Of a stretch of 64,000 nt of DNA, positions 30,339 through 37,682 are shown piece after piece (position 1 is the first letter of the stretch; each line of letters begins with the position of its first letter). The notes beneath the pieces are model-generated. The model had not been told where the DNA came from and ran no database searches. It was given only the letters and a program-made list of their open reading frames with translations. Where the stretch lies: positions 4,774,001 to 4,838,000 of the forward strand of contig NZ_CP108508.1 in NCBI RefSeq assembly GCF_035917275.1. Direction: 5' to 3'. The stretch is from Streptomyces sp. NBC_01237 (lineage in GTDB: Bacteria > Actinomycetota > Actinomycetes > Streptomycetales > Streptomycetaceae). A program made the position numbers and the translations under genes.

Positions 30339-30412
30339 GGGCCGTTAGCTCAATTGGTCAGAGCAGCGGACTTTTAATCCGTTGGTTGTGGGTTCGAGTC
30401 CCACACGGCCTA
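30339..30412 (+). tRNA. tRNA-Lys (UUU), edge of an accessory island
   Basis: 74 bases: acceptor GGGCCGT/ACGGCCT (one G-U pair), anticodon loop CTTTTAA (TTT), T-loop TTCGAGT. The decayed integrase that follows suggests this gene was an integration site. I found no second copy of the tRNA 3' end before 37750. Confidence 0.97.
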
Positions 30413-30452
30413 CCGTCGGCAGCGAGGGAAAACCCTCTCTGAGCTGCTATTT

Positions 30453-30486
30453 AGCGCCTCGATCGGGTTTATCCGGTCGAGGCGCT
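30453..30486. terminator. Hairpin after tRNA-Lys
   Basis: A 14-bp stem with one G-U pair (30453-30466 with 30473-30486), 6-base loop. It overlaps the 3' end of the integrase remnant and could stop transcription from both sides. Confidence 0.7.
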
Positions 30487-30940
30487 CAGCCTTCTCCGGC
30501 CTCGTGCGTGAGCGGACGGACCGGCAGCGGGGGCTACGGAAGAAGCCTTACGGGCACGTGGCACCGGCGCAGCGGGGACTTCTACCGCGGCTTTGTCGAC
30601 TTCGGTCAGCAGACCCGTGTACGTGTCCGACGTGAGCGTGATCGTGGAGTGGATCAGCGTCTCCGTGATCGTGTGGGTCGATCGCCATACCCGCCGTGGG
30701 TGAGAGCGGCCGCGACGTGACGCAGGTCTCGCAGGAGGATCGGCGGCAGGTCGGTGGCGGCGAGGAAACGGGGGAACGTCCGCCAGACGTTCGCGAAGGT
30801 CACCACACTGGAGAACGAACGTCCTCGCAGGAAGTAGGGGGGCTGATACTCGCGCCAGGTCCCCCGGTCCGTGGGAAAACCCGTGCTCCTCCCTGCCCTG
30901 TCTCAGGACAACGGCAAAGAACCTGTTCACAGGCTCCTGG
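30469..30940 (-). pseudogene. Decayed tyrosine recombinase (integrase), C-terminal part
   Basis: On the minus strand one frame reads LPPILLRDLRHVAAALTHGG, which matches the integrase box around the HxxR motif (typical LPPIRLHDLRHGAATL). A second frame then reads LIHSTITLTSDTYTGLLTEV, matching the segment with the catalytic Tyr (typical GHSTITLTSDTYTSLLPEV). A frame change and a missing stretch separate the two, and the N-terminal two thirds are absent. It ends against the tRNA-Lys gene, the usual place for integrases of actinomycete integrative elements. The frame holding the Tyr remains open for about 150 codons, but it is not a functional gene. Confidence 0.82.
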
Positions 30941-30944
30941 CCAG

Positions 30945-31358
30945 TCAGGAGGCGAGGGTCGCGTCCAAGTACTCCTGCACAGGCTCGAACAGCCCGTACG
31001 GCACGTATTCGGGGATCTCGTCGTGGGCGACCCAGGCCAGCTCGGCGAGTTCCTCGGTGTCTGCGACGTGGGCGGTACCGCTCAACACGTCACAAGCGGT
31101 GTACGACATCAGCCGACCCGTCTTCGGGTGGACCCGCTCGCCAAGCAACTTCACCTCCGCCACAGTCAGCCCGGTCTCCTCTCGAGTCTCCCGCACAGCG
31201 GCGTCCTCGCGGGCCTCGCCGGGCTCGACCTCTCCGGCCGGAAACTGCCAGGAGAGTTGTCCCTCGCTGACCCGGCGGCGCACCATGAGTACACGGCCTT
31301 CGTTCACCACAATTGCTGCGGCGATGCCCGGACGATCGTCCGTGTTCTGCTGCGTCAC
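30945..31358 (-). CDS. Nudix hydrolase
   Basis: A 137-residue Nudix protein with a complete box: GEVEPGEAREDAAVRETREE followed by TGL. The family cleaves nucleoside diphosphates linked to other moieties; the substrate is not predictable. GTG at 31358 overlaps the stop of the upstream HTH-Nudix gene by 3 bases, so the two are coupled. In the integrative element pSAM2 the Nudix-motif protein Pif blocks redundant transfer, so a link to the lost mobile element is possible. Alternatively it sanitises nucleotides for the island operon. Confidence 0.9.
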   Translation of the reverse strand: MTQQNTDDRPGIAAAIVVNEGRVLMVRRRVSEGQLSWQFPAGEVEPGEAREDAAVRETREETGLTVAEVKLLGERVHPKTGRLMSYTACDVLSGTAHVADTEELAELAWVAHDEIPEYVPYGLFEPVQEYLDATLAS

Positions 31359-32014
31359 GTCTGCTTCTCCAGGGCGGTCAGGACGGGTGGGAAGATCGTA
31401 TCGACGGGGATGAAGCGGGGTACCGCCTTTCTGGGCACCCACATGACGTCGATGTTCTCGGCCACGTCGCTATTGGTGGCCTGACCAGCCAGATATTCAC
31501 ACAGGAAGTACTCGCACAACACGCCGGTGACGGGATGGAGTCTGTCCCCGAGGCGCTGCCGGACCGCGCAGTGGACTCCCGTCTCGTCCAAGGTCTCCCG
31601 CACAGTGGCGGTCTCCGCCCTCCCTCCCGGCTTGATGACGCCGGCCGGGAATTGCCACGTAGTCCCAGTAGCGTCGTCATCTCGGCGGCACACAAGAAGG
31701 ACATCGCTTTCGCGGACGACTACCGCGATGGCCACCCGCAGCGCCTGCGCGCCGGCGGGCGGCGAGTCCGCTGGGGCCCGTTCTTTCGCCCGTAGGAGGG
31801 CGAAGCGCTGTCGCACAGCCGGAGGAGCCTGCTCATGAGCTGTGTCGAGGAGCTGTTGCATCTCCCTGCGGGGCACAAGAGAGGCGTCGGAGTGCCAGGC
31901 GGCCACGGTCCTTGCGGCGATGCCCAGGCGGGCAGCGAACTGTTCGTTGCTGAGCCGTAGGGCCGACTGCAACAGGCAGGCGTACCTGCCGCTCCAGCGC
32001 TCAACCACGTCCAT
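31355..32014 (-). CDS. HTH (XRE-like) - Nudix fusion protein
   Basis: A 219-residue fusion. Residues about 5-60 form an HTH (LRLSNEQFAARLGIAARTVA). A helical linker follows (to about 95), then a Nudix domain (about 98-215). Its box is altered: GVIKPGGRAETATVRETLDE then TGV, with Gly in place of the first conserved Glu and Asp for another; the last catalytic Glu is kept. It may be a ligand-sensing regulator with weakened hydrolysis. ATG at 32014 has GAGGGG 8 bases upstream. An inverted repeat 48-66 bases upstream is a candidate operator. Confidence 0.85.
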   Translation of the reverse strand: MDVVERWSGRYACLLQSALRLSNEQFAARLGIAARTVAAWHSDASLVPRREMQQLLDTAHEQAPPAVRQRFALLRAKERAPADSPPAGAQALRVAIAVVVRESDVLLVCRRDDDATGTTWQFPAGVIKPGGRAETATVRETLDETGVHCAVRQRLGDRLHPVTGVLCEYFLCEYLAGQATNSDVAENIDVMWVPRKAVPRFIPVDTIFPPVLTALEKQT

Positions 32015-32061
32015 AAGACTGCCCCTCGTAGCTGTCCCGGTGCAGGAATCCGCACGCCGAA

Positions 32062-32080
32062 AGTGCACTCCCACTGCACT
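32062..32080. promoter_or_regulatory. Inverted repeat upstream of the HTH-Nudix gene
   Basis: AGTGCA-N7-TGCACT, perfect arms, with a further half-site GCACTT at 32082-32087. It lies where an autoregulatory operator would be expected. Confidence 0.6.
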
Positions 32081-32089
32081 GGCACTTCA

Positions 32090-32400
32090 TGGTTGCGGGA
32101 TAGGAGCCCGGGGAGAATCGGAGTCATCGAGGCCCGAGGAAGCGCCCCAGGGCCCAGTGGGTGGGAGACATAGGAGAGGCGCGAAAGCGCCGGACGACCA
32201 CAGGGGGATTTTAGGTGCCTGTCTCCAGTGGATAACGGAGAAGGAGAAGTTGGCTGAATCGCTCCTCTTGATCAGCTGATCGGTCACGCCAGCCAGCGTT
32301 CACCCGTCCGGGGCGTTCCTCGCCCGAACCGACTTGCTGACGCCGGTAGCCTCAGCAGCTGACGGCTGATTGACCGTCATGTTCGTTTGCCGGCATGGAG
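32090..32400. other. Gene-free gap in the island, lower GC
   Basis: No ORF of note. Short hairpin GGCGC-GAAA-GCGCC at about 32179-32192 with a GNRA-type loop. The NDPK-like promoter should be at the right end, but I see no convincing -35/-10 pair. Confidence 0.4.
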
Positions 32401-32411
32401 AGAGGGAGTCA

Positions 32412-32921
32412 ATGCCCGAAGTTCAGGCACACACTGTCGAGCGCACGCTCGTCCTGCTCAAGCCCGATGCGCTGGCGCGTGGCCTGGCAGGAAGGATCAT
32501 CACGCGGTTTGAGGACGCCGCGCTGAAGATCGTCGGCACGAAGATGAAGTGGATGGACGCAGAGTTCACCCGTCGGCACTACTTCGACCTTGAGGAACGG
32601 CTGGGTCCGGAGGTCTACAACGTCACGTCGACGTTCATGCAGCAGGGGCCGGTTATTGCCCTGGTGCTGGAGGGCTTCGATGCCATCGCTACCGTCCGCA
32701 AGATCGTCGGCAGCACCTATCCGAACCAGGCTCCGGCCGGCACGGTGCGGGGCGATCTCTCGCACTACAGCGCCGCGGCAAGCATCGCCTCGGGCAAGGC
32801 GGTCGCCAACCTTGTGCATGCCTCCGGCAACGCGGAGGAGGCAAAGCAGGAGCTGGAGCTGTGGTTCGGCAAGGACGAACTGCAGGACTACAAGACGCTG
32901 GCCGAGATCTACACCTACTAG
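32412..32921 (+). CDS. Divergent nucleoside diphosphate kinase
   Basis: A 169-residue NDP kinase-like protein, longer than the usual 137-140 residues. It has LVLLKPDALARG at the start (phosphate-site Lys) and NLVHASGNAEEAKQELELWF with the catalytic His (usual core NxxHGSD; here HASG). NDP kinases move the gamma phosphate between NTPs and NDPs. GAGGGAG 3-9 bases before the ATG at 32412 fixes the start. It is clearly not the housekeeping Ndk because of the altered active-site loop, its length and its place in the island. It may supply or salvage a nucleotide for the genes downstream. Confidence 0.85.
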   Translation: MPEVQAHTVERTLVLLKPDALARGLAGRIITRFEDAALKIVGTKMKWMDAEFTRRHYFDLEERLGPEVYNVTSTFMQQGPVIALVLEGFDAIATVRKIVGSTYPNQAPAGTVRGDLSHYSAAASIASGKAVANLVHASGNAEEAKQELELWFGKDELQDYKTLAEIYTY

Positions 32922-33001
32922 CAACTGGTCGTAGCGTCACTGCGGGGACGCCGGAGCGTTGATCACCACTGGGGCACGACTGTCTGATCCGAGAGGGCAC
33001 C

Positions 33002-33301
33002 ATGACCAACTCGACCCGCCCGGCGTCCACCGAGGAACTGGAGTCGATCTTCCAGCGTGAGCTGGTGACCGACCGGTGGGCGGCCGCCGAGACGGCGTAC
33101 GCCATCGCTGTGCGCCATCGTGACCTGGGGGACCGACCCGCGTCGCGTGAGTGGGCCCAACAGTGTCTGCGTCTGCTGGAGGGCTTCTCCAGCGAGACGG
33201 AGGAGCAGGTGGCCACCGGCCGCACGTCGGTGGGAGGCGTTCAGCTGCCGACCTACCTGCATTCGGGGGTCGTCGAGGGACGCTTCGGCGCCCTTGGCTG
33301 A
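33002..33301 (+). CDS. Small hypothetical island protein
   Basis: A 99-residue soluble protein. Two helices with the pattern DRWAAAETAYAIAVRHRDLGD and ASREWAQQCLRLLEGF look like one TPR-like helical hairpin. The C-terminus has GGVQLPTYLHSGVVEGRF. GAGAGG lies just before the ATG. No function is known. It sits between the NDPK-like and CYTH genes in the same direction. Confidence 0.65.
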   Translation: MTNSTRPASTEELESIFQRELVTDRWAAAETAYAIAVRHRDLGDRPASREWAQQCLRLLEGFSSETEEQVATGRTSVGGVQLPTYLHSGVVEGRFGALG

Positions 33302-33462
33302 CGCCCAAAGATGTACCGGGGTGATGCGGTCGGTACCCGCATCGGTCGCACCACCCCGCGCACAACCACCAACCCCCACAGCGATCGCCCGACCGGACAG
33401 GCCCTCCTCGCGGCCGGGTCCGGCTAGCTTCGCCATGCCTGAAACCAGGAGGCAACAGTCCC

Positions 33463-34047
33463 GTGGCTGTCGAGATCGAGATGCGTGCGCGCTTCACCAA
33501 GGAGGCCCACGATCAGCTCGTCACCCGCCTGAAGGCGGACGGAGAGGATCTGGGCCCCGACGACAAGCACATTTACTTCTACGTGCTCCCCGACCAGCTC
33601 CTGAAGGTCACCGATAACACCGCTGTCGGCACTGCCAAGATCACCCTTAAGGGGAGCAAGATCGGGCAGGGGGCAGCCTTCGCCGAGACCGAGTTCGCCA
33701 TCGCCCCCGCCGACGTTCCCGCCGCGGTGAAGGTGTTCAACGCCCTCGGGTTCGAGACGGCAATGCACGAGGCGTTCAACTTCCGTCACAACTTCCGCAT
33801 CGACGACATCGAGATCGCGGTCAAGTGGAGCGAGGCGTGGGGCTACCACGCGGAGTTCGAGGTCCTGCTGGAGGACGGCGCCTCATACGAAGCCCGTGCC
33901 GAGGCCGAGGCCAAGATCACGGACGTCGCCACGGTGCTCGGCGTGGCTTTGATGACGGAGCAGGAGCTGGCCGACTTCACCGCCGCGTTCGAGGCGGCCG
34001 AGAAGGAAAGCAAGGAGCGCGAGCAGCAGGCCGCGCCGATCCGGTAG
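33463..34047 (+). CDS. CYTH-domain protein (class IV adenylate cyclase/triphosphatase type)
   Basis: A 194-residue CYTH (triphosphate tunnel) protein. The N-terminal signature ExExK appears as VEIEMRARF with Arg for Lys. Alternating acidic and basic beta-strands follow (HIYFYVLPDQLLKV, AKITLKGSKIG, DIEIAVKWSEAWG, YHAEFEVLLED). CYTH enzymes act on triphosphates: class IV adenylate cyclases, thiamine triphosphatase, polyphosphatases. The exact reaction is open. GTG at 33463 has AGGAGG about 11 bases upstream. A short gap separates it from the HD gene. Confidence 0.82.
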   Translation: MAVEIEMRARFTKEAHDQLVTRLKADGEDLGPDDKHIYFYVLPDQLLKVTDNTAVGTAKITLKGSKIGQGAAFAETEFAIAPADVPAAVKVFNALGFETAMHEAFNFRHNFRIDDIEIAVKWSEAWGYHAEFEVLLEDGASYEARAEAEAKITDVATVLGVALMTEQELADFTAAFEAAEKESKEREQQAAPIR

Positions 34048-34086
34048 GGAACATCACCGCGGAGACCACCAAGGGGGTGGGCACGA

Positions 34087-34851
34087 GTGAGCACAACCCC
34101 GTCAGCCGCAAGTTTGATCGACCTGGCTGCCCGACGGCAGCTTCCGCTCCACCAGCACATGGACTATGCCACCGTCGTGTGGATCAGCGACCACAGGCCC
34201 GTCCTGCCATCGGCATCGGCGTCGGCCTTGCGTCCGCAGTCGAAGGAACTGCTCGCTCGCAGCGGACTGCCCACCCGGTGGTGGGCGGACCCACGCCTGT
34301 ACACGTCGCTCCACGGAGTCCGGCACGCCATGAGGACGGCGGCGCTGGTCTCTGTCCTTGCCGAGGCGAACGGCCTCGACGACACCGACTCCGCCACGGC
34401 GATTCTCGCCGCCGCCGTGCACGATTGCCAGCGGCGGCACGACAAGGCCGACTGCGGACATGGCGCCCGCGCGGCCATCTGGCTGGCCGCGAACGCCGAC
34501 ACTGTCTGGAGCCACTTCGGCCTCGCCGCCACACCACGGCGAATCGTGCAAGCGTCCATCGCCATCCGTCTGCACGACATCCCGTACGAGGCGTTTACCG
34601 CAGACGACAAGACCGACCACACCCGGGCCGAGCGCATCACCGACGTGGTCAAGGCCGCTGATGCCCTGGACCGCTATCGCCTGCCGAAGCTGAAGTGGTG
34701 GCCGGATGCCCGGCATGTGCGTGAGCCCGCCTTCGACCAACTGCGCGGCCTCGCCTTCGACCTGGTACTGATCTCGGAGCGGGCCTATCTCGCCGGGGCC
34801 GACGACACCACGGCCGTAGGCTACGCGCTCGCCGAGAAGGGCCTGGTCTGA
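34087..34851 (+). CDS. HD-domain phosphohydrolase-like protein
   Basis: A 254-residue protein. Metal ligands of the HD superfamily are visible in order: His in TSLHGVRHAMRTA, the HD pair in AAVHDCQRRHD, a later His in DCGHGARAA, and Asp in KAADALDRYRL. HD enzymes hydrolyse nucleotides or nucleotide second messengers. GTG at 34087 has AAGGGGGTG upstream. The gap from the CYTH gene is 39 bases and the next ATG follows after 2 bases, so this is one operon. A CYTH cyclase-like enzyme followed by an HD hydrolase would suit synthesis and breakdown of a nucleotide, but that is inference. Confidence 0.8.
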   Translation: MSTTPSAASLIDLAARRQLPLHQHMDYATVVWISDHRPVLPSASASALRPQSKELLARSGLPTRWWADPRLYTSLHGVRHAMRTAALVSVLAEANGLDDTDSATAILAAAVHDCQRRHDKADCGHGARAAIWLAANADTVWSHFGLAATPRRIVQASIAIRLHDIPYEAFTADDKTDHTRAERITDVVKAADALDRYRLPKLKWWPDARHVREPAFDQLRGLAFDLVLISERAYLAGADDTTAVGYALAEKGLV

Positions 34852-34853
34852 CC

Positions 34854-36311
34854 ATGGACTTCCTCGACTCCTACCACCTGTGGGCCGACGCCCACGCATT
34901 CTTCGACTCCACCCTCAGCCCCCGCCCCGGCGATCACGCCCACTCCCTCGCCTCCCAGGCTGCGGGCTGGGACAGACGGCTCGCCGAGGAAACTCCGAAC
35001 GGCCATTTGCTACGCCAGAATGCCCTCTTCGAGGCACTGAGCGGCAGCGGCAAGCTGCACTTGCTGCACGTCACCCACGCCCTGGAGGCGATCAGCCGAC
35101 AGGGAGTGCTCTACCCGTCGGGTGGCTGCCTTGTAGGAAGCATCTACTGTGCACCGCTCACGGCGATCGACCGGGGCTTCCGCATGCACAATCTCGGCGA
35201 CTACGTCCTGACCAAGGAAGCGCCGACCTTCCTGGCCAAGCTCGGCGTCACCGATCGCGTCCCCACTCCGCTGATCTTCGAAATCGACACGCCGCCGCAG
35301 GCATACCGCGGTCTCGCCGGCGTGGACTACCTGCGGCTGGGCCTCATCCACCTGCAGATCTACAGCCACCTCGAATACCTGCTGAGCAAGAACGAACGGC
35401 ACCAGCTGCGCGAGACCGTCGTGTGCCGGGTCAAGAACTCGGCCGCGTTCCTCGCCACCGCTGCCGCCGTCGCCTATCAGAGCACTCGGATTGATGCCGG
35501 GCTGTTCCTCAAGCTGCTCGACGAGACGATCCCCCGCCTGCCGATCCTTGGCTACCTGTACTTCGAAGCGGTCGCCGAGTACCTGATGCTCCATTCGACT
35601 TCTCACCACACCCGGCGTCTGGCCGAACTCGGCGAGCTGAACAACTGGCTGTACAAGGAGATGTTGTTCGCCTCCTTCCCTGCCATGGCCGGCAAGTTCG
35701 ACCTCGCGAGTTTCCGCCCCCGGCCGAAGCAGCTGGCCGCGCTCCTCCACCGAGTCGAGCCGACCATCGACATCAGCCACGCGAACGCATACCTGGTCGA
35801 GCGAATCAGCTACCTCGTCGCAGCTCGCCTCTTCGCACCCGGTGACGCCCCCGAAGCATGGCACCACACCCGCTGGGAATTCGACTCCCTGGCCGCTCAG
35901 TTCGGACCGCTCCTGGGCCACCTCATCCACCGAGAACTGCGTACCTTCGGCCGCTACCCCGATTTCTACTTCTACTTCGACCAGCACAAGGCACTGCAAG
36001 CCTGGAACTACTGGAACCACATGGACATCGTCGCCCCGTTCAACGGCACGATGCCCAAGGGCGAGATCGGCATCAACCCGGCCTACCCCAACCTCGACTA
36101 CCGCGTCTGGCGCGCCGAGCAGGACGACGCCGGCCACCTCCACCCGGCCGAAGAGCTCTCGCTGACCATCACTCCGCGGCTCGTGGACATCAAGTACACC
36201 CTGATGCGCAACAACCAGTGGGCCGCCCTGCGCCCAGCGTCGCCTGATCATCGCCAGCGCCATCCGGGGCCCACTCGACCCCGAACGGCCTCACACGCAG
36301 GAGACCCGTGA
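34854..36311 (+). CDS. Unknown 485-residue island protein
   Basis: I do not recognise this protein. It is soluble, mostly helical by composition, with no signal peptide. The N-terminal third includes LHLLHVTHALEAISRQGVLY then PSGGCLVGS, a pattern faintly like the start of ADP-ribosyltransferase-type folds (His-Thr, then a Gly-rich strand). The middle has Leu-rich helices (GLIHLQIYSHLEYLLSKNER). Around 365-390 an aromatic run appears (DFYFYFDQHKALQAWNYW). The C-terminus (about 462-485) is basic and Pro-rich, perhaps drifted. It starts 2 bases after the HD stop and overlaps the methyltransferase start, so it is the centre of a tight operon. Confidence 0.7.
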   Translation: MDFLDSYHLWADAHAFFDSTLSPRPGDHAHSLASQAAGWDRRLAEETPNGHLLRQNALFEALSGSGKLHLLHVTHALEAISRQGVLYPSGGCLVGSIYCAPLTAIDRGFRMHNLGDYVLTKEAPTFLAKLGVTDRVPTPLIFEIDTPPQAYRGLAGVDYLRLGLIHLQIYSHLEYLLSKNERHQLRETVVCRVKNSAAFLATAAAVAYQSTRIDAGLFLKLLDETIPRLPILGYLYFEAVAEYLMLHSTSHHTRRLAELGELNNWLYKEMLFASFPAMAGKFDLASFRPRPKQLAALLHRVEPTIDISHANAYLVERISYLVAARLFAPGDAPEAWHHTRWEFDSLAAQFGPLLGHLIHRELRTFGRYPDFYFYFDQHKALQAWNYWNHMDIVAPFNGTMPKGEIGINPAYPNLDYRVWRAEQDDAGHLHPAEELSLTITPRLVDIKYTLMRNNQWAALRPASPDHRQRHPGPTRPRTASHAGDP

Positions 36312-37048
36312 TGAGTCCCTCCGGCATGCCCTCCGTCGACCTTCTCGGCGAGCAGATCTCTGCCGTACTCGCCGACCCCGCCACTACCCACGGCCTCGCC
36401 CGCACTCTCCGGGCCGCAGCGAAGGAGATCGAACTGCACTGCTACCACCACGCCAGCTGCCGCGCCTGGCCCAACGGCCGGCTCGACGAAAGGCCCATCA
36501 AGGTGCAGATCGGCGGCGGGGCTCACCGCGTCGACGGTTTCTTCAACATCGACCTAGTCCCGCCGGCCGACCTCCTGTGGGACATTCGTGAGGGCATCCC
36601 TCTCCAGGACGACAGCACCAACGAGATCTTCTCCGAGCACTTCCTGGAGCACATCGACTACCCGCACTCGGCCAAGCACTACGTTCGCGAGGCCCACCGG
36701 GTCCTCGTGCCGGGCGGCCGGATCATCACCGGCGTTCCCGACGCCGCCCTCGCCCTGAACCAGTACCCCGGCCCCCTGGACGCCAGCGACGAGACGATCG
36801 AGCGCTGGTACGCCAAGCGCGACTGCCGCAGCGACATCAACACGCGACTCGACCTGATCAACCTCGTCTTCCGCGACCAGGACGACGACCCCACTTACAC
36901 CCCACACCTGTGGGCCTACGACCACGAGAAGCTCGTCCACCTCTTCACCGAGGTCGGTTTCAGCACCGTCGAGCCCTGGACGTTCGATCCCGCCATGGCC
37001 AACCCGAAGCGCCGGTGGGGCAGCGTCTACGTCGTTGCGACGAAGTAG
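36311..37048 (+). CDS. Class I SAM-dependent methyltransferase
   Basis: A 245-residue protein. An N-terminal helical part (1-60) is followed by a Rossmann methyltransferase core: KVQIGGGAHRVDGFFNIDL (motif I region), then EIFSEHFLEHIDY (post-motif acidic/His segment typical of COG4627-like enzymes) and EAHRVLVPGGRIITGVPD. The substrate is unknown; this group often acts on sugars, lipids or small molecules. ATG at 36311 overlaps the previous stop (TGATG); a GTG one codon earlier is possible. It is the last gene of the island operon. Confidence 0.83.
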   Translation: MSPSGMPSVDLLGEQISAVLADPATTHGLARTLRAAAKEIELHCYHHASCRAWPNGRLDERPIKVQIGGGAHRVDGFFNIDLVPPADLLWDIREGIPLQDDSTNEIFSEHFLEHIDYPHSAKHYVREAHRVLVPGGRIITGVPDAALALNQYPGPLDASDETIERWYAKRDCRSDINTRLDLINLVFRDQDDDPTYTPHLWAYDHEKLVHLFTEVGFSTVEPWTFDPAMANPKRRWGSVYVVATK

Positions 37049-37166
37049 CGCCCTCACGCGGCAGCCGGAAAGTCCCGCGGGTCCTCCCTCATCTGCCGCC
37101 CAGGACTCTCCGGTCCACCACACATCACGCCGCGCCGCCCGGCCACGCCGCCGACGGAGCCACCAC

Positions 37167-37595
37167 ATGAACCAGGCGCCGCCGTCCATCAGCGAACTGA
37201 CCCTCGCTGCTGCACCGGACGCCGTCGCCTGGGCTCGCTGTCGCACCGTCGGCGTCCTACAGCAACGGCGCGCTTCCCCGCCGAGCCCCTTGCAGACGCC
37301 CGGCTCCTCGGCTCGGAACTCAGAACTCACCACCAACGCCATCCGACATGCACGCCCGACGGCGCCCCTGGTACCAACAGCGTCGAATCTGCCGGCCCCC
37401 GGCGCGATGTTGCTCGGGCTCTGGCTGAGATCCGCCAACAGCGCGAAAGCTTCTGTCTCTGACTGCCCTCGACCGGCAGAGAGCACCCAAGGGCTGGCCA
37501 TGGCCACCAACGCGCCTTTCGGTACGCCGCAGCGAGTTGAGCGCCTGCGTTCGGCCCTGGGCCTACGTAGGCCCAAGCTTCCTGCTGCGGCCTGA
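37167..37595 (+). pseudogene. Frameshifted HATPase (anti-sigma-like) ATP-binding protein
   Basis: The start reads SELTLAAAPDAVAWARCRT like the N-terminus of Streptomyces histidine-kinase-like ATPases. The frame then slips: the +1 frame reads EPLADARLLGSEL, and the first frame resumes with ELTTNAIRHARPTAP, the N-box motif (usual SELVTNAIRHA). So two compensating frameshifts lie around 37265-37325. After the N-box the sequence no longer matches in any one frame. Such genes are abundant in the genus; this copy is decayed and marks the end of the island. Confidence 0.7.
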
Positions 37596-37682
37596 CTTCG
37601 GTGTTCGACAACTCGCCGGTGAGGGTTCTGTGCCGTTGTCGCACACCGTCGCAAGGGTTACGCCCCGCGTGCCCGCGCGGCA

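Follow-up and report, generated by a model that had tools for sequence, protein, structure and literature searches.

A mobile gene cassette in Streptomyces centred on a putative split ADP-ribosyltransferase-like protein, with predicted roles in nucleotide chemistry

What holds together a compact group of genes in Streptomyces sp. NBC_01237 that encodes proteins of the NDPK, CYTH, HD and methyltransferase (MT) families around a protein of 485 residues (hereinafter U485), and what could such a group do? The locus lies in a stretch of 64,000 nucleotides (contig NZ_CP108508.1, positions 4,774,001 to 4,838,000), which is denoted here the window and in which all coordinates are given. A preliminary description, made from the letters and reading frames, proposed a nucleotide-based signalling or defence module, or a pathway for a modified nucleotide, and this interpretation is partly supported by the present analysis. 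The genes belong to a conserved mobile accessory cassette, and we tentatively infer from their composition an NAD+-dependent nucleotide chemistry, carried as cargo for conflict with phages or competitors or for signalling; this is the best explanation that we can offer, possible although somewhat short of probable. The cassette consists of the following genes:

30945..31358 (-), NudixA, with the canonical Nudix box GEVEPGEAREDAAVRETREETGL (PF00293, E 3.4e-23); GTG start at 31358 set by orthologues
31355..32014 (-), NudixB, Nudix domain with a degenerate box (PF00293, E 4.9e-14); ATG start at 32014 set by orthologues
32412..32921 (+), NDPK, ATG start (PF00334, E 1.3e-36, 125.9 bits against a cut-off of 27)
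33002..33301 (+), TPR99, small helical protein of 99 residues, weakly TPR-like (TPR_10, E 0.0092, below cut-off)
33463..34047 (+), CYTH-domain protein (PF01928, E 4e-05, 24.0 bits against a cut-off of 23.2)
34087..34851 (+), HD-domain protein, with a sub-threshold HD match in the window protein (PF01966, E 0.26)
34854..36311 (+), U485, 485 residues, predicted split enzyme of the ADP-ribosyltransferase (ART) fold, from a structure model and invariant residues
36308..37048 (+), MT, S-adenosylmethionine-dependent methyltransferase (Methyltransf_11, E 1.7e-05; profile match to 1vlm, E 1e-05)

The reading frames and junctions on which the preliminary description had relied were confirmed, with gaps of 39 nt between CYTH and HD and of 2 nt between HD and U485 and an overlap of 4 nt between U485 and MT. 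The last junction varies: the 4-nt overlap is also present in loci L035, L055 and L062, and a gap of 57 nt in L002 and L005. The natural unit takes in both minus-strand Nudix genes, comprising in the window eight genes (30945-37048), and the order Nudix-Nudix-NDPK-TPR99-CYTH-HD-U485-MT is exactly reproduced in 22 of the 50 loci listed.

Scanning of species genomes confirmed 102 U485 places, the best 80 of which were kept for the counts given below; these counts derive from our own gene calls and clustering and register presence in the fetched stretch rather than adjacency, with some stretches stopping at contig ends. The HD gene was found in 61 of the 80 loci (67 by tblastn, the additional six being L054, L060, L061, L064, L067 and L076), CYTH in 56, MT in 54, and NDPK and TPR99 in 41 each. 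Co-occurrence elsewhere, which the preliminary description had proposed as a check of its grouping, was confirmed: U485, HD, CYTH and MT are found together in 51 of the 80 loci, in two distant bacterial groups. The second group consists of 15 low-GC loci, 11 with Patescibacteria-group names and four (L062, L063, L065 and L066) named 'bacterium', among which HD and CYTH were detected in 14 each, MT in 12 and all four genes in 11; an adenylate-kinase-like P-loop protein is encoded in 11 of the 15. The gene order is not constant between loci, which points to a functional bond rather than to inherited order.

The distances between U485 sequences are strongly correlated with those of the partners (Mantel r of 0.96 for HD, n=61; 0.95 for CYTH, n=56; 0.98 for MT, n=54; 0.97 for NDPK and 0.93 for TPR99, n=41 each), with none of 999 permutations reaching as high a value for any pair, and shared species history contributes to these correlations as well. 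The value for CYTH in the low-GC loci alone is 0.49, perhaps as a result of the mixing of two CYTH paralogues. In the midpoint-rooted U485 tree, the 15 low-GC rows are separated from the 66 rows of Actinomycetota and the window (support 100/99), the full module being represented on both sides; the forms that adjoin pPIWI-RE, UDP-sugar dehydrogenase or SDR genes fall within the Actinomycetota part. U485, HD, CYTH and MT are a conserved, co-inherited unit, usually accompanied by nucleotide kinase or Nudix genes. Within Streptomyces, U485 was found in 19 of 199 genomes, ten with at least 72% identity (one of these partial), eight with 41-45% and one as a short fragment; in a prevalence scan across the phylum with alignment A4, the window's own genome was the sole match among 396. 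Seven of the 20 Streptomyces U485 matches contain a stop inside the aligned stretch.

The genomic setting identifies the cassette as a mobile accessory unit inserted at variable sites. In the window, its surroundings are delimited as follows:

30339..30414 (+), tRNA-Lys (TTT) gene identified by ARAGORN, the left edge of the accessory interval
30414..37448 (no strand), accessory interval of about 7 kb, whose two flanks hold different DNA in a genome of the same species, G019

G019 is 98% identical to the window up to base 30413, at the end of the tRNA-Lys gene, and identity (95%) is regained at 37449; between these flanks G019 is devoid of U485 and holds other DNA, including a 47-bp copy of the 3' end of the tRNA-Lys gene (91%). 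None of the repeats found was a direct copy of the tRNA-Lys end lying at the far side of the interval in the window. The flanks of the cassette mostly differ between the loci with the exact eight-gene order, longer common flanks being confined to a few groups of loci (L024/L026, L025/L027/L029 and L028/L030). Seven virus-annotated contigs carry U485; two of these, L087 and L088, hold the full block adjoining phage head-tail genes (recognized by Pfam in L087 and by similarity in L088), and in the other five (L089-L093) U485 is accompanied by TauD-like and glycan enzymes. No match was obtained among 50,697 phage isolate records, and six among 72,556 plasmid records, all with less than 60% identity.

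Several further observations concern these surroundings. The cargo of G019 at the same tRNA-Lys site (L126, G019:C14:42800-53000) includes, by eye, an XRE-type regulator, an HD protein, a Nudix protein and what may be a pair of ATP-grasp and methyltransferase genes reminiscent of a graspetide cluster. In L089-L093, a TauD-like oxygenase, a UDP-sugar dehydrogenase, U485 and a GT4-like gene lie beside phage-structural-looking genes, with an extra GT2 gene called in L090 and L091, a second, glycan-linked setting of U485. A small family, fam7, which by eye resembles RsbW-type ATP-binding proteins, is encoded downstream of MT in 13 of the 50 listed loci (L004, L005, L006, L012, L014, L019-L022, L033, L036, L037 and L048), and a short remnant-like stretch of fam7 is discernible by eye in the window after MT, at about 37100-37600. 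L036 and L037 both come from the draft genome of S. ipomoeae 91-03; these two contigs share an identical U485 and the same neighbours, with two extra genes just before TPR99, and represent either an assembly duplication or two copies.

Among the candidates scored, 496 relatives of U485 were obtained at E<=0.001, and the 120 listed are named 'hypothetical' or 'uncharacterized protein'; searches of Pfam (E<=1), NCBIfam (E<=0.1) and PADLOC (E<=0.1) gave no family match, and the curated cut-offs of the known ART families in Pfam and NCBIfam were not reached. A match to a known unrelated enzyme, which according to the preliminary description would have spoken against its proposal, was likewise not found in the libraries searched. 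The same description had seen a weak ART-like pattern in U485, and this hunch is strengthened by the structure model, whose best structural rows are the ART domains of diphtheria toxin and tankyrase, with low Z, and by a set of invariant residues. The H-Y-E motif of ARTs consists of H-x-S/T on the first strand, a tyrosine and a catalytic glutamate, in that order. In U485, H72-x-T74, Y98 and E404 follow in the same sequence order and are invariant in 35 of 35 sequences and in 34 of 34 in alignment A4, a largely overlapping set; invariant basic residues are also present in the alignment. The ART-like part of the model is split by a helical insert of more than 200 residues that is conserved as well as the core. 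Foldseek and profile searches of the PDB detected no ART for U485, a viral structure library gave no match, and the profile comparison with DarT, for which one of three DarT loci gave an open frame, was not significant. Taken together, the model and the conserved residues make it probable that U485 represents a new ART-like enzyme of split architecture, with an H-Y-E core divided by a conserved helical domain. In the window strain, the C-terminus of U485 (36246-36311) extends some 20 residues beyond that of many orthologues (464 residues in L002, for example). A small protein in L079 (4523-5023, minus strand; no Pfam match at E<=0.01), encoded near another CYTH protein, contains an 'LFHGS' stretch that appears ART-like by eye.

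The gene immediately upstream of that for U485 encodes the HD protein, in which H76, H80, H112-D113, D122, H125, H163 and D192 are invariant in 22 of 22 family members, 16 of which match PF01966 at E<=1 (best E 6.2e-4). The metal ligands of the HD superfamily follow an H...HD...D pattern. The equivalent positions here, assigned by that pattern, are H80, H112-D113 and D192. The nearest solved structures to the HD model in VIA-align are SidE-type phosphodiesterase domains; in fold, the model resembles these phosphodiesterases, which act after the ART step in SidE chemistry. The catalytic His/Glu/His residues of SidE phosphodiesterases are H277, E340 and H407 in SdeA and H67, E126 and H189 in DupA (PMC6941232). 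The modelled fold suggests that the HD protein is probably the phosphodiesterase-type partner of U485.

The remaining partners point to nucleotides. In the CYTH family, E4-x-E6-x-R8, K35, K63, E75, R108, K121, E131 and E133 are invariant in 24 of 24 sequences; the CYTH signature is ExExK, and this family has ExExR in 26 of 26. Profile matches were obtained to the archaeal CYTH protein 2een (E 2e-10), Saci_0718 (E 3.3e-4) and class IV adenylate cyclases (E 4e-4 to 0.02). The description of the NDPK as altered is not supported in the sense of a lost function: its family score far exceeds the cut-off, and H136, which we take to be the phospho-histidine, is invariant in 9 of 9 orthologues, so that the protein is not obviously crippled. 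The window's genome (G000) encodes two NDPK genes, and the other copy, at G000:C1:2806035, scores higher. The nucleotide theme put forward in the preliminary description is reinforced by genes for thymidylate synthase (TS)-like, nucleoside monophosphate (NMP) kinase-like, deaminase-like and Ham1-like proteins in the relatives. Specifically, a TS-like protein that also matches CMP 5-hydroxymethylase (E 3.8e-10) is encoded in four of the 15 low-GC loci, in three of which (L050, L056 and L058) MT is absent from the stretch; a dCMP-deaminase-like protein was found in L070, a Ham1-like protein in L047 (with called relatives in L035 and L038), and second methyltransferase genes are also present in relatives. 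The TS-like genes (L050:9347-9997, L056:4656-5303, L058:9350-9991 and L065:9337-10035) encode a short protein in which C131 and R151 (L050 numbering) are kept in 4 of 4, and in L050, L056 and L058 they adjoin a second CYTH gene.

The two Nudix proteins differ in their catalytic boxes: the Nudix box of NudixA is kept in the nine rows shown of a 29-row alignment, and the glutamate of GX5E is missing from NudixB in nine rows shown of 29. The N-terminal region of NudixB yields weak helix-turn-helix (HTH)-like matches (E 0.15 to 0.64), and on these sequence features NudixB is a candidate sensor or regulator. A palindrome precedes it:

32062..32080, tentative candidate operator AGTGCA-N7-TGCACT, in the divergent promoter region

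The candidate palindrome (GTGCA-N-TGCAC) is situated upstream of NudixB, about 48 bases from its start, and the core, GTGCA-N6..9-TGCAC, occurs in 16 of 27 intergenic regions, the full form in 9 of 27, these regions being from related species with the window included. In the window alone, the one match against 0.26 expected is not beyond chance, 21 of 100 shuffles also having one. HTH-Nudix repressors that sense ADP-ribose have been proposed for NAD/ADP-ribose conflict systems (PMC9503650). Both Nudix proteins also match the PADLOC candidate model PDC-S07 (E 2.8e-16 and 1.5e-12), which probably reflects just the Nudix domain.

Under the explanation tentatively favoured here, U485 would transfer ADP-ribose from NAD+, with release of nicotinamide, onto one specific small molecule; this acceptor, bound by the helical domain, would probably be a nucleotide. 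The HD enzyme would then split the pyrophosphate of the ADP-ribosyl product to yield a phosphoribosyl product and AMP. CYTH would act on a triphosphate, either the acceptor's or that of a competing nucleotide, removing or rearranging it; MT (absent, with the TS-like enzyme present, in three loci) would add a single carbon, and the phosphorylation level would be set by NDPK or an NMP kinase. The HTH-like, degenerate Nudix protein might sense the ADP-ribose-type product and repress the divergent promoter, and NudixA might clear the excess. A more specific version, which we consider unlikely, is that the ART-like enzyme and the SidE-like phosphodiesterase use NAD+ as a phosphoribosyl donor to make a modified nucleotide that acts as an immune signal or a chain-poisoning antimetabolite, on mobile elements of Actinomycetota and of bacteria of the Candidate Phyla Radiation (CPR). 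If true, SidE-type phosphoribosyl transfer would extend beyond the Legionella effectors to an ordinary bacterial equivalent not tied to intracellular pathogens, and the pairing could reveal a new NAD-derived nucleotide in conflict or signalling. U485 is in any case a widespread family named by none of the libraries searched, and the module, conserved in two distant groups, is testable in Streptomyces.

Some results weigh against this explanation. At the sequence level, SidE_PDE (PF12252) was rejected for the HD family, with a first match at E 0.12 and 12.3 bits against a cut-off of 25, and with 1 of 22 members matching at E<=1; and the linkage of the module to known defence genes is weak overall. 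PADLOC at E<=0.1 gave no model for U485, HD, CYTH, NDPK or TPR99, no known anti-phage system was recognized, and MT matches mad2 at E 9.6e-4. The enrichment near defence genes that had been suggested for examination is weakly supported: among 106 flank proteins (the first 106 of 110 listed, out of 200 candidates), 107 PADLOC families were matched at E<=1e-8, compared with 40 among 106 control proteins (every called protein 100-800 residues long in 14 randomly chosen stretches), a comparison that is weak because the control comes from a single genome, that of the window. Of the 25 families shown for the flanks, most are models of Cas1 or of type I methyltransferases, each on one or two proteins, and most of the 25 shown for the control are GajB-type helicase models on one protein. 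Among individual loci, the U485 module of L035 adjoins CRISPR genes (Cas1, Cas2 and Cas7), and close to that of L036 lies an N6 methylase that carries a restriction-type domain. In the literature searched, which did not extend to subscription papers or preprints, no title or opening of an abstract described this gene set.

In the strongest alternative, U485 would be an effector of defence or counter-defence, an ART whose target is a macromolecule (RNA, DNA or protein), with HD and Nudix proteins trimming or reversing the mark and the others shielding or marking self. The ART-like fold and the H/T/Y/E residues, the mobile setting with phage genes nearby and the CRISPR genes beside the module in L035 all fit this possibility, and a defence system with an mRNA-modifying ART has been reported (PMC11618068). 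Furthermore, in L040, L041, L042 and L046 a U485 homologue is encoded directly behind a pPIWI-RE trio, with a gene overlap of 4 nt (the trio being identified by Pfam and PADLOC in L040 and by clustering in the other three); however, these four loci form one U485 clade and thus represent one event. The kinase, TS-like, deaminase and CYTH partners suit small nucleotides better, and the insert of U485 is as conserved as the core, so on balance this alternative appears somewhat unlikely. In that one Streptomyces clade, the U485 homologue is possibly a fourth member of the pPIWI-RE system.

Another alternative, in line with the preliminary description, is cyclic or linear nucleotide signalling, in which CYTH, like the class IV adenylate cyclases, makes a cyclic nucleotide that HD breaks down, with U485 as the effector under regulation; we regard this as distinctly unlikely. 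A nucleoside natural-product pathway with the product exported as an antibiotic would be in line with the similarity to TS and CMP 5-hydroxymethylase, with the U485 variants found elsewhere with SDR, glycosyltransferases, UDP-sugar dehydrogenase and TauD oxygenase, and with the patchy occurrence in Streptomyces, but the Pfam scan of the eight window genes detected no exporter or resistance gene, and antibiotic clusters would not usually, in our judgement, recur as one set in low-GC CPR-type genomes and next to phage genes; this scenario is quite improbable. Ordinary nucleotide housekeeping or salvage, with U485 non-enzymatic or unrelated and its ART resemblance due to chance, would account for the low structural Z and the lack of sequence links but is very improbable considering the clean invariant set of H, T, Y, E and basic residues, the restriction of U485 to few Streptomyces genomes and its absence from G019.

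The module can be compared with several known systems, each of which it resembles in part. Like CMP 5-hydroxymethylase, thymidylate synthase and phage base-modification pathways, the relatives encode TS-like, NMP-kinase-like, deaminase-like, CYTH and Ham1-like proteins; unlike the CMP- and dUMP-modifying enzymes, the TS-like protein is limited to a minority of the low-GC loci, and unlike the phage pathways, the eight window genes include no DNA polymerase or known DNA-modifying transferase detectable by the Pfam scan. The pPIWI-RE three-gene system is approached by the U485 homologues located right behind the trio, but these are confined to a single clade, and no pPIWI-RE gene is present among the window genes scanned. 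In the ARG-centred NAD+/ADP-ribose conflict systems with HTH-Nudix (NrtR-like) regulators (PMC9503650), there is a comparable accessory set with HD and Nudix partners and a counterpart to the candidate Nudix-type sensor, whereas here the hub is an ART-like protein and CYTH, MT and NDPK take the place of the other components. The eight window genes gave no match to ARG, macro or NADAR families in the Pfam scan, and no search aimed at macro or ARG hydrolase genes was made.

U485 shares with the H-Y-E ARTs (the diphtheria-toxin type, PARP/tankyrase and DarT) the order of H-x-T on the first strand, Y, and E beside a late strand, and its best structural rows are those of the diphtheria-toxin type and PARP/tankyrase; it differs in that a large helical insert separates the Y part from the E part and in having no significant sequence similarity to them. 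The SidE ART type differs from an H-Y-E-like set such as that of U485. SidE and Dup proteins catalyze phosphoribosyl-ubiquitin chemistry, and ubiquitin is not known from bacteria. Unlike in SidE and Dup, the predicted ART and phosphodiesterase of the module are products of separate genes, and the HD protein falls outside SidE_PDE by sequence and keeps metal-type residues; like the SidE enzymes, which combine a mono-ART with a phosphodiesterase, and the Dup phosphodiesterases, the module pairs a predicted ART fold with an HD-like phosphodiesterase fold.

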